Both the position numbers and the translations under genes were made by a program. From assembly GCF_004364645.1 (NCBI RefSeq), contig NZ_SOAW01000002.1:372001-436000 (forward strand): 64,000 nt of DNA, read 5' to 3'. Below the pieces are notes generated by a model. It saw only the letters and a program-made list of their open reading frames with translations. It was not told the origin of the DNA and searched no databases. This DNA comes from Naumannella halotolerans (lineage in GTDB: Bacteria > Actinomycetota > Actinomycetes > Propionibacteriales > Propionibacteriaceae). Shown one piece after another: positions 45,934 to 61,629 of this stretch (positions are counted from its first letter, which is position 1; every line of letters starts with the position of its first letter).

Positions 45934-46120
45934 GCCTTACGCGGAACGCGGCCCCGTCGGGGTGCAGCTGGTTGCGGTCGATTCTGCCGCAGGGTTGACA
46001 CCGTGCTCGCCGAGCTGGTCTGATCACCTCGCCGCCGGGTCCCGGGCCGGCGTTCGAACTCGCCGTCGACCGGCCCTGCAGCGCAGGATGCGACTGCGGT
46101 GACACCTTGAGGAGCAGGTT

Positions 46121-46507: not shown

Positions 46508-46633
46508 CACCCGCCGGCTCGCACAGCCGGCGCACAGCCGATCGGCCGATTCACAAGTGGCCGACAGGTGGCCGGTGGCTTCACAGCCGGCCGACAGTTG
46601 GCCGGTAGCTGGCCTGAACCTTCGCTGGCTGCA

Positions 46634-48421
46634 ATGGCAGCTGTGAACGATCAGAACGCCTCCGCGCCTCGTGACCCCGCGAACCAGGGTTCGAACTCCG
46701 CAGCCGGCTCGGAGTTCCCGCACCACCCCGCCCAGGGCGCGTCCGCTGCCGGTCACGGCTCGGCCTACCCCGGCCCGCAGTGGCAGGCGGCATCGATGCC
46801 GCCCGCGTCCGGCAGCCGATCGGCGGGACACGGGCACTCCGCTGGTGCTGGTGCGGGCGCCGATGATCCGTCCTCGGCAGCCGGAGCCTATGCCGCCAGC
46901 GGCTGGGCCAACGGACCCAGCGGATACGCCAACCCGGGGTACACCAACACCGGGTACCCCAACTCGGGTTACAAAAATCTGGGGTACGCCGCGACCGACG
47001 GTTTCCCCGGCCGACCTGCGGGCGGCTCCGGTCAGCAGCAGCCCCCGATGGGGCAGGGCGCCTCGGCCGGGCAGTCGGGCCCGTACCTCGCATCGGGCTG
47101 GACGGCCGACACCGACCCCCGGGCCACGGCCACCGCGCAACCCGGCCCCACCGGGCGTCCCGATCGATCCCGCCGGGCACGCCGGATCGGGGTCGCCCTG
47201 GTCTGTGCCTTCGTCCTGCTGATCGGCGGTCTGGGGTTGAGCGGAACCGCGCTGAGCTACTTCGGGCTGGGCAACGGCCAGGAACAGGCAGACGCACCGG
47301 CGTCCGGACAGGACTCCGGCACCGGACAGGGCACCGAGGACTCCGGTACGGGCGGCAGCAGCGGCTCGGGCACGGGGGATTCCGGTAGCGGTGTCCCCGG
47401 GCAGGGCATGCCGGGCCAGGGTCAAGGTGGCCAGGGTCAAGGTGGTCAGGGCATGCCCGGCGCCGGCCAGGGGCCGGGTCAGACCTCGCCCGGGCAGGGG
47501 TCGAGCGACAGTTCCGGCGGCACCGAGGCCGATGAGGACCTGACCACCTCGGTGGTGCTGATCGAGACCGAGCTGGAGAGTGGCACCGGGGCCGGTACCG
47601 GCATGGTGCTCAGCTCCGACGGCACGATCCTCACCAACTATCACGTGGTCGACGGGTCCACCGAGGTCCAGGTGACCGTGGCCGACACCGGCCAGACCTA
47701 CGAGGGAACCGTGCTCGGATCCGACGAGTCGGCCGATGTGGCAGTGGTGAAGATCGATGCCACCGGTCTCACCCCGATCACCGTCGACGACGACGGCACC
47801 ACTCTCGGGGAGGAACTGACCGCGGTCGGCAATGCCCTGGGTGGCGGTGAACTGCTGCAGGTCAGCGGCGAGCTGACCGGTACCGACGAGAGCATCCAGG
47901 TCAGCGACGAGGCGACCGGTGGTACCAAACAGCTCACCGGGTTGTTGGAGACCGACGCGGCCGTCGTCTCCGGCTACTCGGGGGGCCCGATGTTCGACGA
48001 CGAGGGGGAGGTGATCGGCATCAGTACCGCCGGCTCGGCCACCAACAGCCAGGTCTCGATGCGTACCGGCAGCGACAGCTACGCCGTACCGATCGATGAG
48101 GCGACCGAGATCGCCGATCAGATCCTCGCCGGTGAGGAGGGCAATGGTGTGACCATCGGCCCGTCGGGCTTCCTCGGCATCGCCGTGGACACCTCCGGGC
48201 AGGTCGCCGAGATCGTCGAGGACTCACCCGCCGAGGACGCCGGCATCGAGGTCGGTTCGGAGATCACCAGCGTCAACGGCACCAGCATCGACTCCGAGAA
48301 CTCGATCGGCGTCGTGCTCGGCGAGACCGAACCCGGTGAACAGGTCAGGGTCAGGTGGACCGATGCCTCCGGGGAGAGCCACTCGGCCGAGATCACCTTG
48401 GCGGAGTCGCCGACCAACTGA
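46634..48421 (+). CDS. HtrA/DegP-like membrane-anchored serine protease with PDZ domain
   Basis: A 595-residue protein. Residues 1-190 are a cytoplasmic Gly/Pro/Ser-rich tail with the repeats GYTNTGYPNSGYKNLGY; one membrane helix (RRIGVALVCAFVLLIGGLGL) is at about 200; a Gly/Gln linker (GQGMPGQGQGGQGQGGQGM) follows. The trypsin-like domain shows His in TNYHVVDGS, Asp in ADVAVVKID and Ser in VSGYSGGPMFD, in the usual order; GYSGGP replaces the common GNSGGP. A C-terminal PDZ domain begins GPSGFLGIAVD. The family degrades or processes misfolded cell-surface proteins. The ATG at 46634 is chosen because upstream frame contains only repeats; a start further upstream cannot be ruled out. Confidence 0.85.
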   Translation: MAAVNDQNASAPRDPANQGSNSAAGSEFPHHPAQGASAAGHGSAYPGPQWQAASMPPASGSRSAGHGHSAGAGAGADDPSSAAGAYAASGWANGPSGYANPGYTNTGYPNSGYKNLGYAATDGFPGRPAGGSGQQQPPMGQGASAGQSGPYLASGWTADTDPRATATAQPGPTGRPDRSRRARRIGVALVCAFVLLIGGLGLSGTALSYFGLGNGQEQADAPASGQDSGTGQGTEDSGTGGSSGSGTGDSGSGVPGQGMPGQGQGGQGQGGQGMPGAGQGPGQTSPGQGSSDSSGGTEADEDLTTSVVLIETELESGTGAGTGMVLSSDGTILTNYHVVDGSTEVQVTVADTGQTYEGTVLGSDESADVAVVKIDATGLTPITVDDDGTTLGEELTAVGNALGGGELLQVSGELTGTDESIQVSDEATGGTKQLTGLLETDAAVVSGYSGGPMFDDEGEVIGISTAGSATNSQVSMRTGSDSYAVPIDEATEIADQILAGEEGNGVTIGPSGFLGIAVDTSGQVAEIVEDSPAEDAGIEVGSEITSVNGTSIDSENSIGVVLGETEPGEQVRVRWTDASGESHSAEITLAESPTN

Positions 48422-48493
48422 GGGCCGCAACCCGCCGGGATCCCCGCTCCGACGACCGTTCGGCGAATTGGCTTCGACGTGGGGGAGTGGGCG

Positions 48494-48499
48494 TAGGCT
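48494..48499 (+). promoter_or_regulatory. -10 box (TAGGCT) of a leaderless promoter for the MFS gene
   Basis: TAGGCT is exactly 6 nt before the ATG at 48506. Confidence 0.5.
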
Positions 48500-48505
48500 G
48501 CTCCC

Positions 48506-49738
48506 ATGACCTCCGTGAACTCACAACGGAGGACGGCAACGACGGCGCTCCTCTCACTCGCCATCGGTAGCTTCGGCATCGGGATGACCGAATTCGTCAT
48601 CATGGGCCTGCTACCCAACATCGCCCAGGACCTGTTGCCCGACCTGTGGGCCACGAACCCCGATCAGGCACTGGCCAATGCCGGGCACCTCGTGTCCTTC
48701 TATGCCCTCGGTGTGGTGGTCGGCGCCCCGACCATCGCCGGTGCCCTGTCGAAGTACCCGCGCCATCGGGTGATGGTCGGACTGGCCGGTGCGCTTCTGC
48801 TGTTCAACGGCCTGACCCTGCTCGCACCGAACTACGAGCTGGTGGCGGTCTCCCGGTTCCTGGCCGGTCTGCCCCATGGTGCCTACTTCGGCATCGGTGC
48901 GCTGGTCGCGGCCCGTGTCCTCGGCCCGGGCAAACGTGCCCAGGGTGTCGCCTTCGTCCTCACCGGCCTGACCGTCGCCAACATCGTCGGGGTACCGCTG
49001 GGTACGTATCTGGGCCAGGTCTTCGGCTGGCGGGCGGCGTACCTGATGGTGGTGGCGATCTTCGCGGTGGCCGCCGTCTGCATCGCCCGTTTCGTACCGG
49101 AGCAGCCGGGTGAGGCGGGCCGCAGCGTGTGGTCGGAGCTCGGAGTGTTCAAGATCGGCCAGGTGTGGGCGACGATCATCACCGGGGCGATCGGCTTCGG
49201 CGGTTTCTTCGCCATCTACTCCTACATCTCCCCGATCGTCACCGATGTCGCGGGCTCGCCGCAATGGGTGGTGCCGGTGGTGCTGGTGCTGATGGGGGTC
49301 GGTATGACCGTCGGCAACCTTCTCGGTGGACGACTGGCCGATGCCCATCTGCGTCTGACCCTGCTTTGCGGCTTCCTGCTGCTGGCCTGGGTGCTGTTGT
49401 CGATGGCGCTGACCGCGGACCGGATCGTGCCCTTGGCCATCCTCGGTTTCGGCGTCGGCGTCGGATCCTCGATCCTCGGCCCGGCCATCCAGACCCGGTT
49501 GATGGATGTCGCCGAGGACAACCAGTCGATCGCGGCGGCGCTGAACCACTCGGCGCTGAACGTCGGCAACAGCCTCGGCGCGTTCCTCGGCGGGTACGCG
49601 ATCGCCTCCGGCGGCGGCCTGGTGTCGCCGGTCTGGGTGGCACTCGGCATGACGATGATCGGATTGGTGCTGGTGTTCGTGCTCTTCCGGGAGCCGCGGC
49701 AGGCCGAACTGCCCGAGCCGTCGCTGGTCAACCACTGA
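48506..49738 (+). CDS. MFS exporter, DHA1/AraJ-like
   Basis: A 410-residue carrier with 12 membrane segments. GSFGIGMTEFVIMGLLPNIA is the first helix of the DHA1 group; GAPTIAGALSKYPRHRVMVG contains the loop motif between helices 2 and 3, and RFLAGLPHGAYFGIGALVAARV the antiporter motif C-like segment of helix 4. The C-terminal half has LGGRLADAHLRLTL and ALNHSALNVGNSLGAFLGG. Relatives export sugars, antibiotics or nucleosides; substrate unknown. The start is supported by a leaderless promoter. Confidence 0.88.
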   Translation: MTSVNSQRRTATTALLSLAIGSFGIGMTEFVIMGLLPNIAQDLLPDLWATNPDQALANAGHLVSFYALGVVVGAPTIAGALSKYPRHRVMVGLAGALLLFNGLTLLAPNYELVAVSRFLAGLPHGAYFGIGALVAARVLGPGKRAQGVAFVLTGLTVANIVGVPLGTYLGQVFGWRAAYLMVVAIFAVAAVCIARFVPEQPGEAGRSVWSELGVFKIGQVWATIITGAIGFGGFFAIYSYISPIVTDVAGSPQWVVPVVLVLMGVGMTVGNLLGGRLADAHLRLTLLCGFLLLAWVLLSMALTADRIVPLAILGFGVGVGSSILGPAIQTRLMDVAEDNQSIAAALNHSALNVGNSLGAFLGGYAIASGGGLVSPVWVALGMTMIGLVLVFVLFREPRQAELPEPSLVNH

Positions 49739-49756
49739 CCTGGGATGTCCGGCAGG

Positions 49757-50182
49757 TCAGAACCGTTCGGGTTCGGCAGCCCGCCGGAATCGTAGCCCGC
49801 TGACGGTCTCGGGGGTGATCTTGACCCACCGGTACTTCAGCGTCGGGATCCACGGCTTCAGTGGCAGTTGCTCGGCGGCGTCGATCTCGGCGGTCTTCTC
49901 AAGCCGCTCGGCGATTCCCTTCGCGACGACGCTCAGGGCCTGATCGTCGTCCCATTCGTCGATCTCCAGGGCAACCCGCGGGTTCGCGGTCAGCTCGACC
50001 AGTTTGGTACCCGGTGCGGTACGGAAGTACAGCGCGCCCTCGTGGGCGACGAAGTTGATCGGGAAGATGTCGATGTCGCCCCCGGCGGCCAGGGCGAGCC
50101 GACCGACCTGGGCGGTGCTCAGCAGCTCCCAGCAGGTCTCTGTGGTCAGAGGCTCGACCGCCTCGTCTTCGGGTGAATACAT
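49757..50182 (-). CDS. Pyridoxamine 5'-phosphate oxidase-like flavin-binding protein
   Basis: A 141-residue split-barrel protein. CWELLSTAQVGRLALAAGGDIDIFPINFVAHEGALYFRT and VALEIDEWDDDQALSVVAKG form the FMN-binding barrel of the PNPOx-like family. It is much shorter than true PdxH, so it is not a vitamin B6 oxidase; related proteins bind F420 or FMN and reduce small molecules. The ATG has GGAGAG 5 nt upstream. No neighbour suggests its substrate. Confidence 0.78.
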   Translation of the reverse strand: MYSPEDEAVEPLTTETCWELLSTAQVGRLALAAGGDIDIFPINFVAHEGALYFRTAPGTKLVELTANPRVALEIDEWDDDQALSVVAKGIAERLEKTAEIDAAEQLPLKPWIPTLKYRWVKITPETVSGLRFRRAAEPERF

Positions 50183-50314
50183 GAGCGCTCTCCGATCGAT
50201 GGACGTGGAACTAGGATACCGCCGCCCACCGCTTCGATGTCTGCCGGTCGAGGGTCTCGACCTGACCTTCGCCCACGGCGAGCGGATCGCGGCGGTACGG
50301 GGGAGACTGGGGTC

Positions 50315-50536
50315 ATGGCGATCGACGACGTGCCCGTCTCCGGTGAGGGAATCAAGCTCGGCCAGTTCCTGAAACTGGCCAACCTGGTCGAGTCCGGCGG
50401 AGAGGCCAAACAGGTGCTCGCCGACGGGTTGGTGCAGGTCAACGGCGAACCCGAGGACCGCCGTGGTCGCCACCTGGTGGCCGGTGACGTGGTGCAGTTC
50501 GGTACCGCATCCGCCCGGGTGGGCGCCGAGGGATGA
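50315..50536 (+). CDS. S4-domain RNA-binding protein
   Basis: A 73-residue basic protein that is nearly all S4 domain: IKLGQFLKLANLVESGGEAKQVLADGLVQVNG is the alpha-L RNA motif and VVQFGTASARVG the final strand. Such small YbcJ-like proteins bind structured RNA, probably the ribosome. The ATG at 50315 is followed at once by the domain; GAGACT lies 6 nt upstream as a weak -10. Confidence 0.82.
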   Translation: MAIDDVPVSGEGIKLGQFLKLANLVESGGEAKQVLADGLVQVNGEPEDRRGRHLVAGDVVQFGTASARVGAEG

Positions 50537-50650
50537 GGACCGGCGCCGCGCGCCCGTACCGCGCCCCGGTCGGCGATTGGGCCGAATCGGCCGGCTGGCC
50601 GTAGACTGTCCGGTGGCCCAGCGGCGTCGGAGTCGCCGGGCCAGGCATTC

Positions 50651-50700
50651 GCCCTCCTGTCACGGGAGATTCCCGTGGCCGCTCGAGACCAGAGGAGGTG
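50651..50700 (+). promoter_or_regulatory. rpsF leader hairpin that can sequester the ribosome-binding site
   Basis: CCCTCCT (50652-50658) can pair with AGGAGG (50693-50698), the ribosome-binding site of rpsF, and CACGGGA/TCCCGTG (50661-50677) makes an inner hairpin. A fold of this kind is common in ribosomal-protein leaders where the product represses its own mRNA, as S6:S18 does. Function not shown. Confidence 0.5.
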
Positions 50701-50710
50701 GAGTTCGCGC

Positions 50711-51019
50711 ATGCGCAAGTACGAAGTCATGGTCATCCTGCAGCCGGAGACCGACGATCGTCAGGTCACTCCCATCTTGGAGAAGTTCCTGTCCGTCATC
50801 ACCAAGGGCGGTGGCACCGTCGACAATGTCGACATCTGGGGCCGTCGCCGTTTCGCCTACGAGATCCAGAAGAAGTCCGAGGGGATCTACGCGGTCATCG
50901 ATCTGACCGCCAAGCCCGAGGACGTCAAGGAACTGGACCGTCAGTTCAGCATCAACGAGCAGGTAATGCGGACCAAGGTGTTGCGGCCGGAGCTGCACGC
51001 CAAGAAGAAGGTCAGCTGA
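50711..51019 (+). CDS. rpsF: 30S ribosomal protein S6
   Basis: A 102-residue protein with the S6 alpha/beta fold: [16 protein letters not shown], then [20 protein letters not shown] and [13 protein letters not shown]. It binds S18 on the small-subunit platform. It opens the rpsF-ssb-rpsR-rplI operon. The ATG at 50711 has the strong AGGAGG about 12 nt upstream; no other start fits. Confidence 0.97.
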
Positions 51020-51141
51020 TCCATCCACAGATCTGTCACCGGAGCGACACCTTGTCGGCTCTCAGTGGCAGGCTGGGATCCGATCAACCCCAACCACCCA
51101 GCCCCTGACCCACGGTCAGCGGCGATGGCGAAAGACGAGAC

Positions 51142-51699
51142 ATGGCAGGCGAAACGATCATCACCGTCGTCGGCAACCTGACGGCCGACCCCGAGTTGCG
51201 ATTCATCCCCTCCGGTGCGGCCGTGGCCAACTTCACCGTTGCCTCGACCCCGCGGAACTTCGACCGGCAGACCCAGGAATGGAAGGACGGCGAGGCGATG
51301 TTCCTCGACTGCTCCGTCTGGCGTCAGGCCGCGGAGAATGTCGCGTCCTCGTTGCAGAAGGGCATGCGGGTGGTCGTCCAGGGGCGCCTGAAGGCACGCA
51401 GCTTCGAGACCCGTGAGGGTGAGAAGCGGACCGTGTTCGAGCTCGACGTCGACGAGATCGGTCCCTCGCTGCGGTACGCCACCGCCGAGGTGACCCGGAC
51501 CAGCGGCGGCGGTGGCGGTGGCCAGCGCGGCGGAGGCAACTACGGAGGTGGCAACTACGGCGGAGGGAACTCCGGTGGTGGCCAGGATCCGTGGGGTGGC
51601 AATTCCGGCGGCGGTGGCAACTCCGGCGGGGGCAACTACCAGCAGGCTGCGGGCAACGACCCGTGGGCTGCCGGGCAGAACGACGAACCCCCGTTCTGA
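51142..51699 (+). CDS. ssb: Single-stranded DNA-binding protein
   Basis: A 185-residue protein. The OB-fold (1-115) shows [51 protein letters not shown] and [17 protein letters not shown] Gly-rich tail (120-175) with Gly-Gly-Asn repeats ends in the acidic tip NDEPPF, the docking peptide for partner repair and replication proteins. It coats single-stranded DNA at forks. It lies between the S6 and S18 genes, the usual actinobacterial order. Confidence 0.97.
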
Positions 51700-51824
51700 T
51701 CGGACAAGCGTTGAGGCCCGAGCCGGTTCACCGGTGACGGCCAGAAGGCCCTGCGGGGTCGTACCCAAGCAAGACACAGGCACATTCCGGCGAGAGCCGG
51801 GCTTCATGAGGAGGAAGCACCACA

Positions 51825-52058
51825 ATGGCCGCACGTAAGCCAGTACAGAAGAAGAAGGTAGCGCCGACCAAGACCGTTCGGATCGGTCAGGTCGACTACA
51901 AGGACACCCAGTTGCTGCGGAAGTTCATCTCCGAGCGGGGCAAGATCCGTGCACGCCGGGTGACCGGTCTGTCCGTGCAGGATCAGAGCAAGGTCGCCAT
52001 GGCGATCAAGAACGCCCGTGAGATGGCCCTGCTGCCCTACGCCACGACCACTCGCTGA
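51825..52058 (+). CDS. rpsR: 30S ribosomal protein S18, cysteine-free form
   Basis: A 77-residue S18. [35 protein letters not shown] and [13 protein letters not shown] are conserved. The zinc ligands of the C+ form (a CxxC near the N-terminus and partners) are missing: [19 protein letters not shown] has no Cys. C- forms need no zinc. Here it sits in the main S6/S18/L9 operon rather than in a Zur-regulated cluster. AGGAGG precedes the start. Confidence 0.95.
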
Positions 52059-52075
52059 GTCAGGGAGGAACAACG

Positions 52076-52525
52076 ATGAAGCTCATCCTGACCGCAGCTG
52101 TCGAGAACCTCGGCATCGCCGGTGACGTCGTCGACGTCAAGCCCGGTTACGGCCGCAACTTCCTGCTGCCGCAGGGGTACGCGATTTCGTGGACCCGTGG
52201 CGCGGAGAAGCAGATCGAGGGCATCAAGCGGGCGCGTGACGCCCGTGAGGTCCGCAATGCCGATCACGCCCAGGAGATCCGTACCCAGATCGAGGCCCTG
52301 CAGGTCTCGATCCCGGTTCGGGCCGACGAGTCGGGCAAGTTGTTCGGTTCGGTGACCCCGGCCTCGATCGCCACCGCGATCAAGAAGTCGGGTGGACCGG
52401 CCGTCGACAAGCGCGCCGTCGAGATCGCCAAGCCGATCAAGAAGACCGGTTCGCACACCGTCGGCGTGAAGTTGCACGACTCGGTGACCGCGCACCTGCC
52501 GCTGGAGGTCGTTGCCGCTCAGTGA
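52076..52525 (+). CDS. rplI: 50S ribosomal protein L9
   Basis: A 149-residue protein. The N-terminal MKLILTAAVENLGIAGDVVDVKPGYGRNFLLPQGYAI matches the L9 RNA-binding domain; a long helix and the C-terminal domain (SGKLFGSVTPASIATAI, HTVGVKLHDSVTAHLPLEV) follow. It lies 17 bp after rpsR and is the last gene of the operon, followed by a strong hairpin. In many actinobacteria dnaB follows; here it does not. Confidence 0.96.
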   Translation: MKLILTAAVENLGIAGDVVDVKPGYGRNFLLPQGYAISWTRGAEKQIEGIKRARDAREVRNADHAQEIRTQIEALQVSIPVRADESGKLFGSVTPASIATAIKKSGGPAVDKRAVEIAKPIKKTGSHTVGVKLHDSVTAHLPLEVVAAQ

Positions 52526-52550
52526 GCGGTGATCCACCGATCGAACAGAT

Positions 52551-52575
52551 GCCCGACCCCGTTCTGGGGTCGGGC
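52551..52575. terminator. Terminator hairpin of the rpsF-rplI operon
   Basis: GCCCGACCCC and GGGGTCGGGC form a perfect 10-bp stem with a 5-nt loop, 26 bp after the rplI stop. Confidence 0.85.
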
Positions 52576-52587
52576 ACTGAAGATCGT

Positions 52588-52620
52588 GAGGTCACGGGAT
52601 CGACGCCCGTCGGAGCCACA
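52588..52620 (+). other. tRNA T-arm/3'-acceptor-like fragment
   Basis: ACGGG-ATCGACG-CCCGT is a 5-bp stem with a 7-nt loop that keeps the T-loop bases T55, C56, G57 and A58, then CGGAGCCA as a possible acceptor 3' strand. No 5' half, D-arm or anticodon arm is present, so this is not a functional tRNA. It may be the remnant of an attachment site. Low certainty. Confidence 0.3.
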
Positions 52621-52942
52621 CGGACCGTCGTGACAACGGTTCCAGAAACCCTCGCCAAGCTTCTACATGTTGGCGGTTTGCTTTGCTCCGCCGCAGAACT
52701 TGCCTACATTTTGGCCACACCTTCGCTCACAGCCTCGTCGTCGAGGCGACCGGTCACCTGGTCAAGATCGTCGTCGAACAGCTGCTCACTGCACGATTCT
52801 CAGTTAGATTCCTTGGGGTGGCGGGTGCCTGTCGGCCGCCGTTTGCCACGCGATTTCTGCGGAAGTCGTCATGGTTGGTCGTGGCCGGTTGAGGGTGGTT
52901 TCAGCGGAGCTGGCGGCACAGAACCGGCATGGGTCCGGGTCG

Positions 52943-53809
52943 TCAGTATGGGGTTGGGTCGGAAAGGAAATCCACGTCGAGTTGCTCCGAACGGCGAGCT
53001 CGGGAGAGCGGAAACTCGTCGTCGGAACTCAGCTCGCCCGATACCGACAAAACCGCACCAGTTACCTCAGGGTCTCCCTTGTATTGTCCCTTGGGGGCAC
53101 ACTTGTCGGCGAGCGATTCCGCAAAGGTACCCCACAGCATGGCCTGCCTGATCGGATCGCGCTCACTGAGGATCGCTTCGCACACCTTGGTGAGGTCGGA
53201 CGGCATCGAGCCGATTCTTGATAGGTCAGCGTCGTCAGGGATTGTCGGCACCGACCCCGCTTTGGCGATGACATGCAACGTGAGTTCTACGGGAGTAGTG
53301 TCCCAATCGACGGCTTCTATCCTCACCTCGGCAACCCTTTGAAGAATCTTCCCAAGGGGACTATCAGGACTGTCGTGTTTCTCCCTGATCAGAGTTTGGA
53401 CCGGCGCGAGCCATGGTTGCACTTTGTCTGGCACTGCAAATCGCCCGAACCAGCGTCCGACCGCGAGCCCGAAGTCACGTGCGTCCCTAGTGTCCGTGAT
53501 GCTGAGGTCGTGGAGCACTCGGACATCTTCGACCTCGGTCTTGGGTAGCGAGCGAATCTGGGCAAGATCGGCAAACAGGATCCGCTCTTCGGTGGTGACA
53601 ACAGGGAAGCGAGGGTTCTCCTTCTTCATCGCCCCGCGGCGGACGGCTTTATTATTGATCTCGACCAGAGGTGCAACCTGAAGGAACTCACGCTTCGGTT
53701 GGACGACGTCACAACTTTGCGACACTATGACGCTGAGGTCGCCAAGCTGAGCATCGACTGTCAGCTCGAGTACGTGACCTTGGCGGAGAAGTCTGAAGTA
53801 CTCGTCCAT
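52943..53809 (-). CDS. Unknown 288-residue protein, third gene of the TIGR04255 cassette
   Basis: A 288-residue soluble protein with no obvious catalytic domain. Near the N-terminus LGDLSVIVSQSCDVVQPKREFLQVAPLVEI contains a Cys-Asp motif (QSCDV) that recurs in proteins encoded beside accessory genes. The middle shows DTRDARDFGLAVGRWFGRF and WLAPVQTLIREKH; the C-terminus VLSVSGELSSDDEFPLSRARRSEQLDVDFL is acidic. Composition and lower GC than the flanks suggest import. It is the last gene of the operon, 8 bp after the HTH gene, and probably works with it. Confidence 0.6.
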   Translation of the reverse strand: MDEYFRLLRQGHVLELTVDAQLGDLSVIVSQSCDVVQPKREFLQVAPLVEINNKAVRRGAMKKENPRFPVVTTEERILFADLAQIRSLPKTEVEDVRVLHDLSITDTRDARDFGLAVGRWFGRFAVPDKVQPWLAPVQTLIREKHDSPDSPLGKILQRVAEVRIEAVDWDTTPVELTLHVIAKAGSVPTIPDDADLSRIGSMPSDLTKVCEAILSERDPIRQAMLWGTFAESLADKCAPKGQYKGDPEVTGAVLSVSGELSSDDEFPLSRARRSEQLDVDFLSDPTPY

Positions 53810-53817
53810 TCCGAGCG

Positions 53818-54327
53818 TCAGGCATCTGCTGCGTAGACGGGCGCAGCGCGGTTGATGTCATTGTTAGCCGACGCGAAGCCGGCACGCTTCCGATCGAGAA
53901 GCGCGAGGATCCGCATCCGTGCCTCCCCTGCGTCGGCCGCTTGAATCGAACGGACTTCACGCACCAAGCTGGCGAGGCGTTCCTCGTTGTGGGCGGAGAT
54001 ATTGCCGCCCGCGGCCCAAAGGTGAACAGTTCTCCGGGACACTCCAAGCAGCTTCGATGTCTGATCCCAGGTGAATGAAGTGGCTGCTCGAAGCTCGGCA
54101 ATCAGACCGCCCGTAGAAGATGCATCAGCCTCAGCGGTACTCACCGTCTTGGTCTCGGTGCTTTGTGCGCCAGTCGCTGAGCTAGACGATGCGTAGAACG
54201 GCCGCACGATAACGGTTTCAGCCTCGCGAACGACTGGTACTGAAGTGCCGAACAAGGCGGCCAGAGTCACGAGGCCGATCGCGGACAGTGAGTACGCCCG
54301 CGGATCGATCCGAGTGTCGACGGTCAT
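53818..54327 (-). CDS. Membrane-anchored helix-turn-helix protein, middle gene of the cassette
   Basis: A 169-residue protein. Residues 13-32 (YSLSAIGLVTLAALFGTSVPV) form a hydrophobic segment; a Ser/Thr-rich stretch follows, then a helix-turn-helix (residues 76-116: LIAELRAATSFTWDQTSKLLGVSRRTVHLWAAGG, given in parts here as TWDQTSKLLGVSRRTVHLW). It could be a membrane-tethered DNA-binding regulator or a signal protein. The start ATG overlaps the upstream stop (54324-54327), so it is translated with the TIGR04255 gene. Confidence 0.6.
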   Translation of the reverse strand: MTVDTRIDPRAYSLSAIGLVTLAALFGTSVPVVREAETVIVRPFYASSSSATGAQSTETKTVSTAEADASSTGGLIAELRAATSFTWDQTSKLLGVSRRTVHLWAAGGNISAHNEERLASLVREVRSIQAADAGEARMRILALLDRKRAGFASANNDINRAAPVYAADA

Positions 54328-55103
54328 GCGTACCTTTCGGAGAACTTATCCGTTGTGACGGTGTTGAACTGAGTACTTGCAATGGATGAGAGATGCGTGG
54401 CTAGCGACGAGATTTCGTTCACGTCGAACTTTCTGCGTCCCTCATCGTAGGCGTCCAGATCGAGGATCCAGCTCTTTTCAGAAACGGGCGGCAGGGTTGG
54501 GTCGATGGACTCGTTTGGACCCACCTGGGCTGAGCGAACGAGCAGGTGCGCTGAGTCGAGGCGATAAACCGACTCGGTGATGCTGTGGACAAGCTCAGAA
54601 CCTGTTGGGGCATCGCCGACACCGCCTAGAACAGACGGAGCAAAGCGCTCGCCGAGCTTGGTAAGGTCTTCCGCGCCGGTAATCCGGTTCGTGTACCTAT
54701 AGCCGATTCGATTGATAACTGGGATCTGCGAGGATTCTGCGAGCGCTGACAGCGCGGTTCGCAGGCGCGATACAAGGTCACCGTGGCCCTTGTAGTTACT
54801 GGTTTCGATTGCCAGGAAAGCCTCACCAACGGAGACAGACCAGTCTTCCATGGCCGACGTGAACCGATGAACAAAGCCGTTCGCCTCCTGCTGAGGTCCA
54901 GCAGGAGTAAATACTATTTGAAGCTCGGCGTCTCGACGCTTCAGGGGATACTGATCGCTGAGTGTGCGTGCCATGGCGGTGACGAGGTCGTCAAACCTGA
55001 AGTTAGTGAGTTCAGGCCAACGGACCTGGACTAGGACCCGGGCGAGCGGCGCGTTGGAAAGAAGTTCCCGGGTTTCGGCGAGTGCAGCTTCTGAGTCGGT
55101 CAC
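54324..55103 (-). CDS. TIGR04255-family protein, first gene of the cassette
   Basis: A 259-residue protein. The start LLSNAPLARVLVQVRWPELTNFRF and later SVGEAFLAIETSNYKGHGDLVSRLRTAL and IPVINRIGYRYTNRITG match the TIGR04255 pattern, a sporadically distributed family without a known function. No membrane segment or nuclease motif is visible. The GTG start has TAGAGT 7 nt upstream. It heads a three-gene operon (ATGA overlap, then 8 bp) that interrupts otherwise conserved core genes. Confidence 0.7.
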   Translation of the reverse strand: MTDSEAALAETRELLSNAPLARVLVQVRWPELTNFRFDDLVTAMARTLSDQYPLKRRDAELQIVFTPAGPQQEANGFVHRFTSAMEDWSVSVGEAFLAIETSNYKGHGDLVSRLRTALSALAESSQIPVINRIGYRYTNRITGAEDLTKLGERFAPSVLGGVGDAPTGSELVHSITESVYRLDSAHLLVRSAQVGPNESIDPTLPPVSEKSWILDLDAYDEGRRKFDVNEISSLATHLSSIASTQFNTVTTDKFSERYA

Positions 55104-55392
55104 GCTTCACACTCTACTTCACATCGTGAGCTACGGTCTACGGGGTGCGCTGCCGAGGAACGCCCGGACCGCAGCGGAGCGGACCGGACGCACCGCAGGC
55201 GGCGCGGCCGTCCGTCAGGCAAGCCTTGAACGAGTAAAGAAGGTTTCGCGACTCCGATCTACCCAGGCGGCGTCCGATGCCGACGCTACTGTGATCTGTC
55301 GTTCCTGGTGTCGTACGGCCGAGCCGACGGTGACCAGCCCCGGAGCCGGTGCGACGATGGAGGTGCGGTCGACCTGCCGGGCCTGGTTCGGT

Positions 55393-56859
55393 TCAGAGCG
55401 CCAGCGCTGCATCGGTGGCGGCCAGCGACTGCTCGACCTGCCGGTGGGTCCAGCGGTCGCGGCCCAGTCCCGGAATCGCCTGCTGAAGTTCTGCCTGCCA
55501 GCGCGGCCAGTGCTCGGGGAAGCACCGACTCAGCAGTTCGATCATCGCCGCCACCGAGGTGGAGGCCCCGGGGGAGGCGCCGAGCAGCCCGGCCAGGCTC
55601 CGGTCGGCGGTGATCACCCTGCGCGTACCCCAGAACTGCAGGCGCCCGCCGCGCAGACCCCTGCCCGCGTCGGGTGCCACGATCTGCGCCCGCTGACCGG
55701 CATGGATCAGCTCCCATTGGCGTCGCTCGGCGCCCGGATACAGCTGCTGCAGTTGGCCGAAGCGGGCGGCATCGGAGGCCAGCAGTTGACGTACCAGGTA
55801 ACCGACCACGGGCAGGTTGCGGGCGACGGCCGAGGCCACCACCGAGGCATTGTCGGGCCGCAGGGTCGCCGGAGCATCGGTCAACCGCCCGTGTTTCAGC
55901 AGCTTCGTGCTGAAGGTCGCATAGGGGCCGAACATCAGCTGCGCCGCACCGTCGACGGTTCGCCGGTCGAGATGCGGGATCGACATCGGCGGTGCGCCGG
56001 GGGCGGCCTGCCCGTAGACCTTCACCGCATGCTCGGCCACCACCTCCGATACAGCACAGCGGTAGAAGGCAGCGCCGACCGGGAGCACCCCGAAGCCGTC
56101 GATCTCCGGTATCCGGGCGGTCTGCAGCAGCGGCAGCGTGGCACCTCCGGCACCGACGAAGACGAATCGGGTACGGAAAGTGACGTCCCGTTCGGGGGTA
56201 CGAGCCGTCACCGACCATCGACGGGGCGCCAGCCGTCGAATTCCGCGCACCCGGTGACCGGTCCTCAGCTCACCACCCCGCGCGGCGAAGGCGGCGGCCA
56301 GCTGACGCGTCAGGGCGCCGTAGTCCAGATCGGTGCCTGCGGTGTGGCGGGTGGCCGCGACAACGGTCCGGTGACGTCCCCGCATGGTCAACGGCGCCCA
56401 CTGGGCGATCTCGTCGGCCGCCGTGGTGAACTCCATCGCCGCGAACAGCGGGTCGCTGCGCATGACCTCCCAGCGGCGCCGCAGGTAGGCGGCATTCCGC
56501 TCACCGAAGACCAGTGCCAGATGCGGTGCTCGATGGATGAAGGCCGCCGGTGACAGGACCCCTTCGGCCGCCAGCCCCGCCCACCACTCGCGACTGAGCA
56601 TGAACTGCGAGGCGACCCCGTGGGCCTTCGACGGGTCCTCGGGATCGGGCATGTAGTTCAGTTCGCAGTACCCGGCATGTCCGGTGCCGGCGTTGTTCCA
56701 CGCTGCGCTGCTCTCGGTCGCCGGCTCGGACCGGGTCTCCAGCAGCACGATTCGCCAGTCCGGTTGCAATCGGGCCAACAACAAGCCGAGGGTGACCGAC
56801 ATGATCCCGCCGCCGACCAGGACCGCATCGGCGTCCTCGGCGGCACCCGCCCGGCTCAT
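55393..56859 (-). CDS. mqo: Malate:quinone oxidoreductase
   Basis: A 488-residue peripheral membrane flavoprotein. AVLVGGGIMSVTLGLLLARLQPDW is the FAD-binding start; SSAAWNNAGTGHAGYCELNYMPD is the family signature; FVFVGAGGATLPLLQTARIPE and YLVRQLLASDAARFGQLQQLYPGA follow. It oxidises malate to oxaloacetate and passes electrons to the quinone pool in the TCA cycle. GGGGAG lies 6 nt before the ATG. Divergent from the two-component operon; the 289 bp before the cassette holds no gene I recognise. Confidence 0.95.
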   Translation of the reverse strand: MSRAGAAEDADAVLVGGGIMSVTLGLLLARLQPDWRIVLLETRSEPATESSAAWNNAGTGHAGYCELNYMPDPEDPSKAHGVASQFMLSREWWAGLAAEGVLSPAAFIHRAPHLALVFGERNAAYLRRRWEVMRSDPLFAAMEFTTAADEIAQWAPLTMRGRHRTVVAATRHTAGTDLDYGALTRQLAAAFAARGGELRTGHRVRGIRRLAPRRWSVTARTPERDVTFRTRFVFVGAGGATLPLLQTARIPEIDGFGVLPVGAAFYRCAVSEVVAEHAVKVYGQAAPGAPPMSIPHLDRRTVDGAAQLMFGPYATFSTKLLKHGRLTDAPATLRPDNASVVASAVARNLPVVGYLVRQLLASDAARFGQLQQLYPGAERRQWELIHAGQRAQIVAPDAGRGLRGGRLQFWGTRRVITADRSLAGLLGASPGASTSVAAMIELLSRCFPEHWPRWQAELQQAIPGLGRDRWTHRQVEQSLAATDAALAL

Positions 56860-56887
56860 CGGCTGCTCCCCTGCACGAGAACACGTT

Positions 56888-56893
56888 TATCAT
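56888..56893 (+). promoter_or_regulatory. -10 box (TATCAT) of a leaderless promoter for the response regulator operon
   Basis: TATCAT is 6 nt before the ATG at 56900, in the divergent gap with mqo. Confidence 0.5.
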
Positions 56894-56899
56894 CTCCGG

Positions 56900-57553
56900 A
56901 TGCACATCCTCATCGTGGAGGACGATCGCTCGGTCAGTGGCGCACTGGCCGAGGTCCTTGCCGCCCACTTCCATCAGCCCGAAGTGGTCTCCCGGGGCGA
57001 GGATGCCCTGCGCCGCCACCGCGACGCAGATCTGATGCTGCTCGACCTGGGGCTCGGTGATCTCGACGGTCTGACCGTGCTGCAGCGTATCCGGCGGGTC
57101 AGTCCGATACCGACCATCGTGATCACCGCCCGCGGCGATGAGCGCTCCACCGTCACCGGGCTTCGCTCCGGCGCCGACGACTACCTGGTGAAGCCGGTGC
57201 GGATCCAGGAACTGCTGGCCCGGATCGACCTGGTCGCCCGCCGGTCCCGGGTCACGTCGAGCCCGCAGCGGGTGCTGGCCCAGGACGTGGAGATCGCATT
57301 GGACAGCCGGGAGGTGCGGGTGGGCTCCGATCCGGTGCACCTGACCCAGACCGAGTTCGACCTGCTCGCCCTGCTCGCGCGGAACACGGGCCGACCGGTA
57401 CGCCGGGAGCTGATCCTCTCCGAGGTCTGGGACGACCAGCTCGGTACCAGTTCACGCAGCCTCGACGCGCACATGGCGCAGCTGCGGGCGAAGCTGAAAC
57501 GTCCCGGTTTGATCAGCACCGTCCGCGGTTTCGGCTACAAACTCGTGGACTGA
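56900..57553 (+). CDS. OmpR-family response regulator (TctD-like)
   Basis: A 217-residue regulator. The receiver (1-115) shows ILIVEDDRSVSG (acidic pocket Asp8/Asp9), phospho-acceptor Asp49 in LMLLDLGLGD, and TIVITARGD and DYLVKPVR (Lys near 101). The C-terminal winged-helix DNA-binding domain (about 125-217) has LTQTEFDLLALLARNTGRPVRRELIL and SSRSLDAHMAQLRAKL. It precedes the histidine kinase by 2 nt. It probably controls the tctCBA genes after it. Confidence 0.93.
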   Translation: MHILIVEDDRSVSGALAEVLAAHFHQPEVVSRGEDALRRHRDADLMLLDLGLGDLDGLTVLQRIRRVSPIPTIVITARGDERSTVTGLRSGADDYLVKPVRIQELLARIDLVARRSRVTSSPQRVLAQDVEIALDSREVRVGSDPVHLTQTEFDLLALLARNTGRPVRRELILSEVWDDQLGTSSRSLDAHMAQLRAKLKRPGLISTVRGFGYKLVD

Positions 57554-57555
57554 CT

Positions 57556-58941
57556 GTGCGCAATCGGATCCTGGTCCCGCTGCTCAGCTGTGCCCTGCTG
57601 GCGCTGATAGCCGCTGCCGTCCCCTCACTGGGCCTGATGGCGCAGCGCCGTACCGAACAGATGATCAGCAACCGGACACAGGTGCTGGAGCGGGTGGCCG
57701 AACTTGCCCGCAGCGTGGAACCGGACCGGGCGACCAGCGGTTCGGCCTTGGAGACCTATGTCGAACGCCACCGACAGATCCATCGAGAGCACCTTCTGAT
57801 CCTCGACTCGACGGGACAGACGGTCCATTCCACCGGTGGTCTCGACAAGGACTCACCCCAGGTCAGCACCCTGTTGCGCACCTACGGTTTCACCCCGCCA
57901 CGGGTCCAGGTGGCCACCATTCAGCCGTGGAGCCCGGACCGGGCCCTGATGGCGGTGCCGATCGAGATGGGCAACGACCTCAGCGGGGGAGTGGTGGTGC
58001 TGCAGGCCGATCTGACCGGCGCGCGCCGCGACATCCGACTGGCCTGGCTGTTCGCGCTGGGCATGGTGCTGCTGCTCGCCGGGGTGTTGGTGATGGTGAC
58101 ATCTGCCTGGTCCCGATGGGTGGTACGGCCGGTGCTCCGACTGGACGAGGCGGCCAACCGTCTCAGTACCGGCCAGCGCCCCGAACCGGTGCAGACGGCC
58201 GGCCCGCCGGAGCTGCGGCGGCTGGCTCGATCCTTCGACTCGATGGCACAGGCACTCACCTCCACCGTCGAACAGCAACAGGCACTGATCGCCGACACCT
58301 CCCATCAGCTGCGCAATCCGATCGCTGCGGTACGTCTGCGGGTCGACCTGTTGCAACAGTCGGCCACGACCCAACAGGAACCTTCGCTGCATCAGGTGCA
58401 GGCCGATCTCGACCGCTTGGAGGACACGGTGGACCGACTGCTCGTGCTGGCCGAACTCGATCATCAGATCAATGCTGAACCCTTGGGAAGTGCGGTCAGC
58501 AAGGAGATCTCGCTGATCGAACCCGAGGTGATCGTGCATCATTGGCAGGCCCGGGCAACAGCTGCCGGAGTGCGGTTGCGGGCCGTGGGCGAGCCGGTGC
58601 AGACCCGCGCCCGAGGCGCCGAGGAGATGATCGACAACCTGCTGGACAATGCCTGCAAGTACGCCGGCGAGGGCGCCACCGTGTGGTTGCGCGCCCGGCG
58701 TGAGGCGGACCAGGTGTTGATCATGGTGGAGGACTCCGGCAGCGGGCTGGCGGAGACCGAGCTGCGCTACGTCGGCCACCGGTTCTGGCGCTCGTCCAGG
58801 CACACCGACCGGGCCGGCACCGGCCTCGGGCTCTCGCTGGTGATCACCCTCGCCCGGGCCAGTGGTGGAACCGCCGAGGTGACGCGTTCGGACCATGGTG
58901 GGTTGGCGATCCGGCTCACCCTGCCGGCGGTGGAACGATGA
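57556..58941 (+). CDS. Sensor histidine kinase (TctE-like)
   Basis: A 461-residue kinase. Helix 1 is at 5-25, an extracellular sensor at about 30-150, helix 2 (LAWLFALGMVLLLAGVLVMVTSAW) at about 158-180, then a HAMP linker. The HisKA box ADTSHQLRNPIAAVRLRVDLL has the phospho-His at about 250; DNLLDNACKYAGEGATVWL, DSGSGLAETE and GTGLGLSLV are N, G1 and G2 boxes. It reads an outside signal, presumably with the TAXI lipoprotein encoded next, and phosphorylates the response regulator. GTG start 2 nt after the regulator. Confidence 0.93.
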   Translation: MRNRILVPLLSCALLALIAAAVPSLGLMAQRRTEQMISNRTQVLERVAELARSVEPDRATSGSALETYVERHRQIHREHLLILDSTGQTVHSTGGLDKDSPQVSTLLRTYGFTPPRVQVATIQPWSPDRALMAVPIEMGNDLSGGVVVLQADLTGARRDIRLAWLFALGMVLLLAGVLVMVTSAWSRWVVRPVLRLDEAANRLSTGQRPEPVQTAGPPELRRLARSFDSMAQALTSTVEQQQALIADTSHQLRNPIAAVRLRVDLLQQSATTQQEPSLHQVQADLDRLEDTVDRLLVLAELDHQINAEPLGSAVSKEISLIEPEVIVHHWQARATAAGVRLRAVGEPVQTRARGAEEMIDNLLDNACKYAGEGATVWLRARREADQVLIMVEDSGSGLAETELRYVGHRFWRSSRHTDRAGTGLGLSLVITLARASGGTAEVTRSDHGGLAIRLTLPAVER

Positions 58942-59873
58942 CCGGGGGCAGCCGGGCAATCGGCAGGCGCGCCCTGCTGGGAGCAGTCGGAGGCCTCCTC
59001 GGTGCCGGTCTGCTCGGTGGTTGCAGCCGGCCCGCCCACCCGGTGGTGATCGCTGCCGGGCCCACCGACACCCCCGATCTGGCCTTCGCCCGCCTGCTGG
59101 CCGCCGCACTCGACCGGGCCGGGCACCCGGCGACGGCGCTGATCACCAGCGGCAACCTGGAGAATGTGCAGGCCGTCGGCGAATCCCAGGCCCACCTCGG
59201 CATCTGCACCGCGGACACGATCGAGCGCCGAGGGCCCCTGGTCGCCCTGGCGCAGCTCCACCAGCGCCATCTGCACCTGGTGACCCGCGGGGACAGCGGG
59301 ATCACCGCCGCCGAGGAGTTGCGGGACCGCCGGATCGCCGTACCCCCGCGCGGTGTGGCCGGTCACGAGGCGGCGGTTCGGGTCCTGGCCGCCGTCGGGG
59401 CCGGATCCGTCGACGACCTGGACGGCAAGTGGATGCCGATGGAGGACGGGGCTGCCGCCCGGGCGGTGGCCGGGCGGCGGGTCGAGGCGATGATCTGGGC
59501 CGGGGCCCTGCCGCCTGCCGATGTAGCCGCAGTGGAGGCGGTCACCGCCCTGCGGGCCCTCGACCTGTCGGCTGCCCTGACGCGGTTGCGGCCGGCCAAC
59601 GGTACGTACCAGGCTGCCCGCCTCCCGGCCGCGATCTACCACCAGTCGACGGAGGTGGCGACGATCGCGATCCCGACGCTGCTGGTCTGCCATGGCAACC
59701 TCCCGCACGGGGTCGCCAGCACGGTGGTCGATCTGCTGCTCGACCGGGCCGAGGAGCTGGTGCCCGCCTCGACCTACGGCCTGCAGTACCTGAGCCCGGC
59801 CAACCTGATCGACACCGCCGGTGTGGAACTGCACTTCGACGCCGTGCGGCGCTATCGGGTCCGGTACGGGTGA
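58938..59873 (+). CDS. TAXI-type solute-binding lipoprotein (TRAP family)
   Basis: A 311-residue exported protein. The signal peptide IGRRALLGAVGGLLGAGLLGGCS ends in a lipobox with Cys near residue 29. The rest has a TAXI (TRAP-associated extracytoplasmic immunogenic) pattern: VIAAGPTDTPDLAFARLLAAAL at the start, LGICTADTIERRGPLVALAQL, ELRDRRIAVPPRGVAGHEAAVRVLAA. The family binds carboxylates or amino acids. No dctQM permease follows; instead it sits between a two-component system (ATGA overlap with the kinase) and tctCBA, so it may present ligand to the sensor. Confidence 0.82.
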   Translation: MTGGSRAIGRRALLGAVGGLLGAGLLGGCSRPAHPVVIAAGPTDTPDLAFARLLAAALDRAGHPATALITSGNLENVQAVGESQAHLGICTADTIERRGPLVALAQLHQRHLHLVTRGDSGITAAEELRDRRIAVPPRGVAGHEAAVRVLAAVGAGSVDDLDGKWMPMEDGAAARAVAGRRVEAMIWAGALPPADVAAVEAVTALRALDLSAALTRLRPANGTYQAARLPAAIYHQSTEVATIAIPTLLVCHGNLPHGVASTVVDLLLDRAEELVPASTYGLQYLSPANLIDTAGVELHFDAVRRYRVRYG

Positions 59874-59932
59874 GTGCTGGCTCGCCGGCAGCGACGTTAA
59901 GGCGATGCAAAGATGCGGCGCTCGGCTGGCTT

Positions 59933-59946
59933 GTGAGATGGCTCAC
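59933..59946 (+). promoter_or_regulatory. Candidate dyad operator upstream of tctC
   Basis: GTGAG (59933-59937) and CTCAC (59942-59946) are inverted around a 4-nt centre, about 87 nt before the tctC start. It could be a site for the response regulator. Confidence 0.3.
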
Positions 59947-60032
59947 GGCCTAGTTTTCCGGTGAGTTCGCTGGACGAGAGGCCGAGACCTCCGAACCCGG
60001 CGAGCCGACATCAACGACGATGAGGGGGAGCC

Positions 60033-61031
60033 TTGCCCATTTCGAGGACGCGCCGTACCGGCGCCGCGGTCGTGGCTGCGATCGCCTGCGTGAGTGTGAC
60101 CGCCTGCAGCGGGGGTGGTGCCGATGACGGCGCCGACTACCCGACGGAGAACATCGAGGTGATCGTTCCGTTCTCGGCCGGCGGACCGACCGACACCGTC
60201 ACCCGTTTGGTGGCCGACCCGATGGGTGCCGAACTCGGGCAACAGATGGTGGTGCAGAACGTCGAGGGTGCCGGCGGGACGATCGGCGCCGGCGAGGCTT
60301 CGCGCGCCCGTCCGGACGGCTACACCCTGCTGCTGCACCACATCGGCATGTCCACTGCGCCGGCGCTGTACGAGAACCTGCCCTATGACCCGCAGGCCGA
60401 TTTCGCCCCGGTCGGGTTGGTGGCAGAGGTGCCGATGACGATCATCTCCCGCAACGATCTGGGGCCGACCACGATGGACGAACTGGCCACCTACATCCAG
60501 CAGAACCAGTCCACCATCACCTACGCCAATGCCGGTGTCGGTTCGGCCTCCCAGCTGTGCGGGCTGTTGCTCGAACGGGCGCTCGGAGTCGACTTCCAGG
60601 AAGTTCCCTATGACGGCGCGGGTCCGGCGATCGCCGACGTCGTCGGCGGTCAGGTCGATTTCATGTGCGACCAGACCACCAACACCTCCGGACAGATCCG
60701 TGGTGGTGAGGTGACCGCCTATGCCGTCACCACTCCGGAGCGGTTGGAGAGCCTGCCCGATCTGCAGACCACGGCCGAGGCGGGGTTGCCCGACCTGGAG
60801 CTGAGCATCTGGCACGGACTGTACGCGCCGGCCGAGACCCCGGAGGCCGTGATCAGCAAACTCGAGGGTGCACTGCAGACGGCGCTGGCCGATGAGGCGG
60901 TGGCCAACAGCTTCAGCGATCTGGGCGCCACGGTGCCGGCTGCGGAGGATCAGACACCGGAGGGGCTGGCCGCCCGGTTGGCCGAGCAGACCGCCTTGTG
61001 GGGCGAGGTCATCAGCGAGCCCGTCGGTTGA
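60033..61031 (+). CDS. tctC: Tripartite tricarboxylate transporter binding lipoprotein (TctC/Bug family)
   Basis: A 332-residue lipoprotein with signal and lipobox (VSVTACSGG). The Bug family shows VIVPFSAGGPTDTVTRLVADPM near the N-terminus, PDGYTLLLHHIGMSTAPALYENLPYDPQADFAPVG, and YDGAGPAIADVVGGQVDFM; these form the anion-binding pocket. It catches a carboxylate outside and delivers it to TctA/TctB. The start is TTG with GGGGGAG about 3-4 nt upstream. A 159-bp gap separates it from the TAXI gene. Confidence 0.9.
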   Translation: MPISRTRRTGAAVVAAIACVSVTACSGGGADDGADYPTENIEVIVPFSAGGPTDTVTRLVADPMGAELGQQMVVQNVEGAGGTIGAGEASRARPDGYTLLLHHIGMSTAPALYENLPYDPQADFAPVGLVAEVPMTIISRNDLGPTTMDELATYIQQNQSTITYANAGVGSASQLCGLLLERALGVDFQEVPYDGAGPAIADVVGGQVDFMCDQTTNTSGQIRGGEVTAYAVTTPERLESLPDLQTTAEAGLPDLELSIWHGLYAPAETPEAVISKLEGALQTALADEAVANSFSDLGATVPAAEDQTPEGLAARLAEQTALWGEVISEPVG

Positions 61032-61137
61032 TCAACCGGCCCGGTCGGTCGTTCGCTGCGGCCGATCGGGCCACCCGTACCGGTGAGGTACCCGTGAGTC
61101 AGCCGCACCCGTGAGTCAGAAGAGTGAGGAGATCGAT

Positions 61138-61614: not shown

Positions 61615-61629
61615 GAGGGGAAACTGATC

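Follow-up and report, generated by a model that had tools for sequence, protein, structure and literature searches.

The DNA stretch that was analysed, referred to as the window, comprises 64,000 nucleotides of the Naumannella halotolerans genome and includes a cassette of three minus-strand genes, A, B and C, the features of which are compiled in Table 1. Genes A and B share 4 bp (ATGA) and B is separated from C by 8 bp. This arrangement had been reported in a preliminary description of the locus and was reproduced here. The lower GC content mentioned in the same description was likewise found: values of 0.57-0.60 were obtained for the 500-base intervals across the cassette (53000 to 55249) versus 0.61-0.76 for the remaining intervals of the region 46000-62000. 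The flanking genes, named rplI and mqo in that description, serve as markers only. With respect to the terminator that had been placed behind rplI, a hairpin can indeed be read from the sequence at positions 52551-52575, but it is devoid of a T run and no terminator after rplI was called by the terminator scan. A tRNA or attachment site beside rplI was considered and rejected, because ARAGORN detected no tRNA in the window and the segment 52530-52720 occurs only once in the genome. In the empty-site comparison, which covered 9 kb around rplI in each of five relatives, no mqo was detected.

Table 1. Positions of the cassette genes and of predicted features within the window.
Feature	Position	Strand	Remarks
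Gene A, TIGR04255 family protein	54324-55103	minus	259 aa, GTG start
Gene B, HTH protein	53818-54327	minus	169 aa
Gene C, QSCDV protein	52943-53809	minus	288 aa
Tandem direct repeat TGTGAAG-TAGAG-TGTGAAG, proposed operator	55105-55123	minus	stops one base before the GTG of A
TAGAGT within the repeat, possible -10 element	55111..55116	minus	7 nt before the GTG, by eye
Putative helix-turn-helix of B	53998..54102	minus	about residues 76-110, recognition helix ..SRRTVHLW..
Predicted MazF/CcdB-like domain of C	53441..53806	minus	residues 2-123, VIA with 6kyt_J
Gln-Ser-Cys-Asp motif of C	53708..53719	minus	residues 31-34

An alignment of five C proteins was used to scan one genome per species from 84,980 species. 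The best 80 of 87 confirmed relatives, along with two loci from viral contigs, provided a set of 82 C-bearing loci, and the genes A, B and C are located on the same strand and in this order in 70 of them. These trios are contiguous with gaps of less than 400 bp in 68 cases, and more than 2 kb lie between two of the trio genes in L107 and L112. The C gene is partial or in pieces in the trios L080, L132, L134, L137, L138, L153 and L156, of which L134 and L153 are situated at a contig end. The 12 exceptions comprise five loci affected by contig ends (L096, L100, L133, L144 and L152, with C additionally broken or partial in L144 and L152), five loci with a broken or truncated C (L114, L128, L129, L130 and L158), one locus that has lost A and carries intact B and C (L125) and one that has kept A and an intact C along with a mere remnant of B (L136). 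The possibility, raised in the preliminary description, that the genes mostly occur separately does not apply to C, which is seldom intact without A and B in this set of 82 loci (the best 80 of 87 plus the two viral ones), and it applies in part to A, which occurs next to different partners or by itself as well. Across 58 loci, the identities calculated pairwise for A, for B and for C are correlated with r values of 0.84-0.87, these values standing without a housekeeping control. The trio is a real unit.

The 66 rows of the C tree, many of which originate from MAG contigs, span ten phyla, namely Pseudomonadota, Cyanobacteriota, Myxococcota, Acidobacteriota, Actinomycetota, Chloroflexota, Planctomycetota, Rokuibacteriota, Nitrospirota and Thermodesulfobacteriota. 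This quick tree, which contains many weak branches and places the C protein of the window on a long branch, implies 18 phylum changes, with a possible minimum of nine and a shuffle mean of 31.7. By means of tblastn, C was detected in four and A in nine plasmid records, the majority of the plasmids concerned being conjugative or mobilisable. The arrangement A-HTH-C is present in eight plasmid records from seven organisms (Kocuria, Sphingomonas, Sinorhizobium, Chroococcidiopsis, Rhizobium etli with two plasmids, Paenarthrobacter and Robbsia), the Robbsia trio being a more divergent copy. In three of these eight records B is missing from the incomplete PLSDB gene table, the open reading frame nevertheless being present, and Rhizobium sp. 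CB3060 carries A without C.

In the lineage of N. halotolerans the cassette is accessory. Counting its own genome, A is present in two of the 57 relative genomes and is absent from the genome of the same genus; the second A-bearing relative (G415), a member of a different genus in the same family, contains A, B and C together. Among 396 genomes of the phylum, again including its own, C was detected in three by a single-sequence query and TIGR04255 in 31. The position adjoining rplI could suggest that the genes have a housekeeping role as part of the ribosomal-protein operon region, an explanation that we consider extremely improbable in view of the occurrence of A in only one of the 56 other relatives searched and its absence from the same-genus genome, the low GC content, the presence of a repeat element of its own and the occurrence on plasmids.

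Searches of four libraries (Pfam, NCBIfam, PADLOC and PHROGs) with the C protein produced no match at E <= 1. An AF2 model calculated from the 66-row alignment (pLDDT 84.8, pTM 0.70) was compared with known structures by Foldseek, and all 50 matches listed represent MazF, CcdB or such toxins, the MazF protein of Mycobacterium tuberculosis being the top match (E 4.7e-4) and CcdB reaching an E value of 1.2e-3 (probability 1.00). Additionally, VIA superimposed residues 3-123 on 6kyt_J with a Z score of 11.9 and an rmsd of 2.9 over 104 residues. Viral structures named PemK-like are likewise found at the head of the structural match list. At the level of sequence, C was aligned with a PemK-type profile of 30 rows that had been gathered from relatives by PF02452. 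The global comparison resulted in a score of 15.2 over 110 columns, as compared with at most 8.6 for 60 column-shuffled decoys and 6.8 for the reversed profile, whereas in the local comparison one of the 60 decoys was equally good, which is not significant. The family PF02452 is not among the nine families matched by any of the 66 C members at E <= 0.1. The identification of C as a MazF protein by sequence was consequently abandoned and the fold relation was retained; the relation of C to MazF and CcdB is well supported as a predicted fold and remote in sequence.

According to the available part of a mutational study, Arg25 and Thr48 of MazF are needed for RNase activity (PMC7354611). When the columns of C are equated with these positions by hand, an Arg is present at the first in 14 of 65 sequences and the second is occupied by Val or Ile in 64 of 66. 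A Gln-x-Cys-Asp site is conserved instead, with Cys present in all 66 aligned sequences and Asp and Gln in 65 of 66 each. The invariant or near-invariant residues are Gln31, Cys33, Asp34, Asp81, Lys90, Arg119, Arg123, Pro127, Arg163 and Asp278. More divergent proteins of C-like type have QHPC, LHPC, SHDC, SHAC or TQDC at this site, so that the Cys is what persists. We infer that the chemistry or the target of C differs from that of MazF. The missing MazF catalytic residues would also fit a cassette that serves mobile elements in regulation or maintenance and whose C protein has the MazF fold without being toxic, for instance as a nucleic-acid-binding co-regulator. SH3-like barrels are versatile, and this versatility would accommodate such a role; nevertheless, it appears unlikely to us, as the PDB matches listed for C are toxins and the partner B is of the antitoxin type.

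The B protein gave HTH matches in Pfam that remained below the cut-offs. A profile of the B family (35 rows) detected MbcA in the PDB with an E value of 1.8e-6 in an alignment spanning the HTH and the tail, and PF20432 (Xre-like-HTH) was found in 23 of the 35 members at E <= 0.1 and is absent in the B protein of the window. For profile-profile comparison, eight PF09722-type antitoxins were picked by hand from 17 extracted frames according to a readable HTH, 43 matches being listed. Against these eight hand-picked sequences, the complete B profile scored 75.6 (decoy maximum 17.5) and the tail 34.3 with a probability of 90.6% (decoy maximum 17.0, none of 60 decoys being as good). The tail alone retrieved no MbcA from the PDB at E <= 10 in an hmmsearch, designed armadillo repeats and chance matches being obtained instead, and hmmscan detected PF09722 in none of 27 tails. 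In view of the profile-profile scores of the full-length protein and of the tail, the B family looks like an Xre/MbcA/ParS antitoxin; the B protein of the window has a shortened tail without the P-x-D-L-L...G motif. The gene had previously been described as encoding a membrane-anchored HTH protein, possibly a sensor. A hydrophobic stretch of 19 residues (mean hydropathy 1.87) is present in the B protein of the window, but a value of at least 1.6 is reached by only two of the 35 aligned members, the window included. The hydrophobic N-terminus is thus not conserved, a membrane anchor is not a feature of the B family and the idea of a membrane-anchored sensor is not supported.

The cassette resembles type II modules in being co-operonic and mobile and in combining an antitoxin-like with a toxin-like protein. 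Its earlier characterization as a compact, horizontally spread and toxin-antitoxin-like cassette is supported by the linkage, the occurrence in ten phyla and on plasmids, the predicted fold of C and the profile relation of the B family.

The A protein is recognized by the NCBIfam model TIGR04255 with an E value of 4.6e-38 and 131.5 bits (cut-off 30). Its predicted model (pLDDT 90.5, pTM 0.87) gave no clear Foldseek match. VIA returned guanidino kinases with Z scores of up to 8.9 at 5-11% identity, best Z scores of 7-8 being typical without any clear relative. A role as kinase was held to be unproven, since Foldseek provided no clear match, and SecB is absent among the matches listed for A by Foldseek and VIA. 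The protein thus appears to be without a secure fold. The partners of A were surveyed by eye at the 36 TIGR04255 matches of the phylum scan, among the matches listed. A downstream HTH gene plus a C-like gene was recognized at 14 of these loci (L044, L051, L052, L053, L055, L056, L058, L061, L065, L067-L070 and the window), a single partner, either HTH or C-like, at five (L054, L057, L060, L077 and L078) and a different conserved gene pair at another five (L072-L076); the remaining 12 have other small genes, none or a contig end beside A. A is promiscuous in its partners. A HEPN protein as partner of A was an eye judgement that was rejected, Pfam having returned no HEPN. TIGR04255 itself was not found in the open-licence papers searched.

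These data bear on the question of which gene provides the antitoxin. A might be the true antitoxin and B a transcriptional repressor only, a division found in three-component systems whose regulator is a protein of its own. This would be in keeping with the first position of A in the operon, the short tail of the B protein in the window, the association of A with other small partner genes and the retention of A and intact C next to a B remnant in L136. We regard this assignment as doubtful, because the tail of the B family matches the toxin-binding tails of antitoxins in the profile-profile comparison with the eight hand-picked sequences and because L125 keeps B and C intact without A.

Directly upstream of A, the window contains a 19-bp element, TGTGAAGTAGAGTGTGAAG, that consists of a tandem direct repeat, for which 0.00 occurrences are expected by chance in the window. 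The cassette of G415 has TGTGAAGTAGGATGTGAAG in the same position before A. The exact repeat pattern is present once in the genome of N. halotolerans and once in that of G415 and is absent from the cassette-free genome of the same genus; therefore, the repeat goes with the cassette. The motif TAGAGT inside the repeat was recognized by eye, as was TAGGAT at the corresponding place in L205, and the promoter scan called no promoter at the start of A. By its position, TAGAGT might possibly give rise to a leaderless transcript of A.

The repeat was surveyed in 84 A-bearing loci, including near-copies such as L145 and L146, of which 81 provided enough upstream sequence. A pair of repeats, defined by at most one mismatch in total and accepted in either orientation, was detected upstream of A in 49 of these 81 loci, with a spacing of 12 in 47 and of 11 in two; no such pair occurred among 1502 segments drawn at random from these loci or among 1620 shuffles. 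The distances between exact direct repeats of at least eight bases peak at 12 (30 of 91 loci), every other distance being represented by at most four, and neither a distance-12 repeat nor a canonical pair was found at 16 TIGR04255 loci without an HTH partner. The unselected bases between the copies are also kept, as deduced from 52 sites (T 75%, A 80%, A 86% and G 71%). With respect to the B protein, the canonical pair is missing in 31 of the 80 loci with a readable B helix, and 18 of these 31 have an RR..H helix. The pair is present in none of the six loci with an RQ-type recognition helix and is missing in 18 of the 59 with the RR..H type, a difference with a post hoc Fisher p value of 0.018, uncorrected for kinship. 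The repeats could serve a protein other than B. No description of the repeat was found in the accessible parts of the open-licence literature, the search match being concerned with mitoribosomes.

We consider it probable that the cassette constitutes an autoregulated three-component toxin-antitoxin module with C as toxin, B as antitoxin and A as dedicated third component. The toxin C would consist of a domain with MazF/CcdB fold, in which the catalytic residues are replaced by the Gln-x-Cys-Asp site, and an additional C-terminal domain, and the tail of B would bind and block it. The HTH of B, probably in complex with C, would bind to the tandem TGTGAAGTA repeats that cover the promoter, thereby repressing the operon. 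The A protein might stabilize an A-B-C complex or gate the release of C upon a stress signal, for example infection, so that C would be freed either by loss of B or by a signal transmitted through A. Several observations count against this module: C is not a MazF protein by sequence, the tail of B alone retrieved neither MbcA nor PF09722 and is short in the window, the canonical repeat pair is missing in 31 of 80 loci, the C protein is long for a toxin of such a class, and L136 has kept an intact C and A with a mere remnant of B. The parts of the module are of known kinds; in the open-licence literature no description was found of their combination, of the role of TIGR04255 or of the repeat, nor was DUF2384 found there together with MazF.

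Anti-phage defence proper represents a tentative alternative of appreciable probability, according to which A senses an infection product, C is an abortive effector and B only a regulator, comparable to the tripartite CmdTAC system. The scattered occurrence across phyla and the conjugative or mobilisable nature of most plasmids with A or C are consistent with this purpose. Neighbouring genes were represented by 199 open reading frames, namely those of at most 700 aa among the 218 that a longest-ORF rule had selected. In the 141 of these 199 that were scanned with defence models, without a control, matches were obtained for JetA (one member, 7e-213), mad3 (three), AbiLi (three) and GajA (two). 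No common fourth gene emerged, the biggest cluster containing four of the 199 open reading frames. Against a defence function, the Pfam families of the neighbours are mostly ordinary among the 25 of 110 listed, the neighbour scan is without a control, and none of the three proteins is fitted by a PADLOC model beyond the chance level: with PADLOC 2.0.0, A and C gave no match at E <= 1 and B a weak mad1 match (E 0.031). Moreover, the parts are common to the toxin-antitoxin module and to defence, which differs as a statement of purpose.

If true, the toxin-antitoxin module with A as third component would assign a function to TIGR04255, described in the sources used here as no more than a sporadic protein family, and would add a widespread toxin-antitoxin type, the toxin of which keeps the MazF/CcdB fold and not its chemistry. 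The repeat provides an immediate handle, since one short DNA duplex would be sufficient to test a regulator from many phyla, and it is unusual for a DNA site to be kept in such distant bacteria while being tied to a single cassette. A bolder generalization, to which we assign a low probability, would regard TIGR04255 as an exchangeable sensor of general use, by which several toxin-like partners are licensed, the cassette as a new class of three-component immune switch, C as a MazF-fold effector with a new Cys-Asp catalytic site and the 12-bp TGTGAAGTA repeat as the one recognition sequence that controls the entire module and is conserved across phyla.

A comparison with known systems revealed both similarities and differences. 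The A protein is a clear member of sporadTIGR04255, a model whose name carries no function. With MazF, PemK and CcdB, C shares the predicted fold of residues 2-123 and a collinear global profile alignment, but it has no PF02452 match, has not kept the equivalents of Arg25 and Thr48, carrying Gln-x-Cys-Asp instead, and contains about 165 extra residues. The MazF partners named in the available part of Makarova 2009 are AbrB, RHH, MazF/ccd, XF1863 and PHD (PMC2701414), and B, the partner of C, falls outside this set. In analogy to MbcTA and the Xre-RES systems (PF09722), B appears to be composed of an HTH followed by a tail of the toxin-binding type, and repeats are located in the promoter region, as in the P. 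putida xre-res locus according to the accessible part of its description (PMC12204516). In contrast to these systems, the partner is C and not a RES NADase, no RES domain being matched in C by Pfam, NCBIfam or the scan of the 66-member C family; the cassette has a third gene, and its repeat consists of direct copies in tandem with a period of 12 bp. Toxin-antitoxin-chaperone systems are likewise composed of three co-operonic genes for an antitoxin, a toxin and a third protein. As far as the accessible parts of the reports describe them, the HigBA-Rv1957 system of M. tuberculosis combines a toxin, an HTH-Xre antitoxin and a dedicated third protein in the order toxin-antitoxin-chaperone (PMC9098466), and CmdTAC is a tripartite toxin-antitoxin-chaperone system (PMC11618068). 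The order A, B, C differs from that in M. tuberculosis, with the third gene in first and the candidate toxin in last position; TIGR04255 was not recognized as SecB-like, and the toxin and antitoxin families are different. By analogy, the cassette resembles toxin-antitoxin-chaperone systems in its logic, not in its parts or its gene order.

The three genes of the cassette comprise the TIGR04255 family gene A, the HTH gene B, which encodes the proposed antitoxin, and gene C, which encodes the QSCDV protein as the proposed toxin. Among the loci retrieved with C, five (L114, L128, L129, L130 and L158) carry a truncated or broken C and lack either A or both A and B. These loci represent decay of the cassette, a pattern to be expected if C alone is not tolerated. 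Additionally, two differing A-B-C cassettes are arranged in tandem on a single contig (L143).

Upstream of A, the copies of a second direct repeat are spaced by 24 bp, corresponding to twice the 12-bp period of the tandem TGTGAAG repeat that is the candidate operator. On the other side of the cassette, the sequence just past the hairpin that follows the ribosomal gene rplI resembled the 3' half of a tRNA when judged by eye; ARAGORN detected no tRNA in this tRNA-like stretch, which is present in a single copy in the genome.

Additional features of the window flanking the cassette
Feature	Window position	Location	Remark
Second direct repeat, imperfect, 18 nt	55157-55198	upstream of A	78% identity between copies
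GC-rich hairpin and tRNA-like stretch	52551-52610	3' of rplI	hairpin lacks a T run

A different conserved gene pair follows TIGR04255 at five loci (L072-L076). One gene encodes a protein of about 180 aa that carries a GG(x)nEWH motif; the product of the other is about 155 aa long and contains a DPAHA/C-like motif in most copies. Neither protein of the L075 pair matched Pfam at E <= 1. This arrangement is a second cassette type built on TIGR04255. At L046 and L066, TIGR04255 is followed by a protein of about 180 aa and a small helical protein of HEPN-like appearance by visual judgement; a Pfam search of the L046 helical protein found no HEPN family.

TIGR04255 genes also occur apart from the A-B-C cassette. 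Those of L047, L049, L050 and L059, from four genomes of a single genus (g5), have no recognised partner, and the gene surroundings are similar in three of them. A weak relative of A (E 7e-3) is located at CAKLQF020000006.1:88660-89406 in a 207-kb Acinetobacter phage record. On a Rhizobium plasmid (L012), TIGR04255 is found without C near a multiubiquitin, ThiF and DUF6527 gene set.
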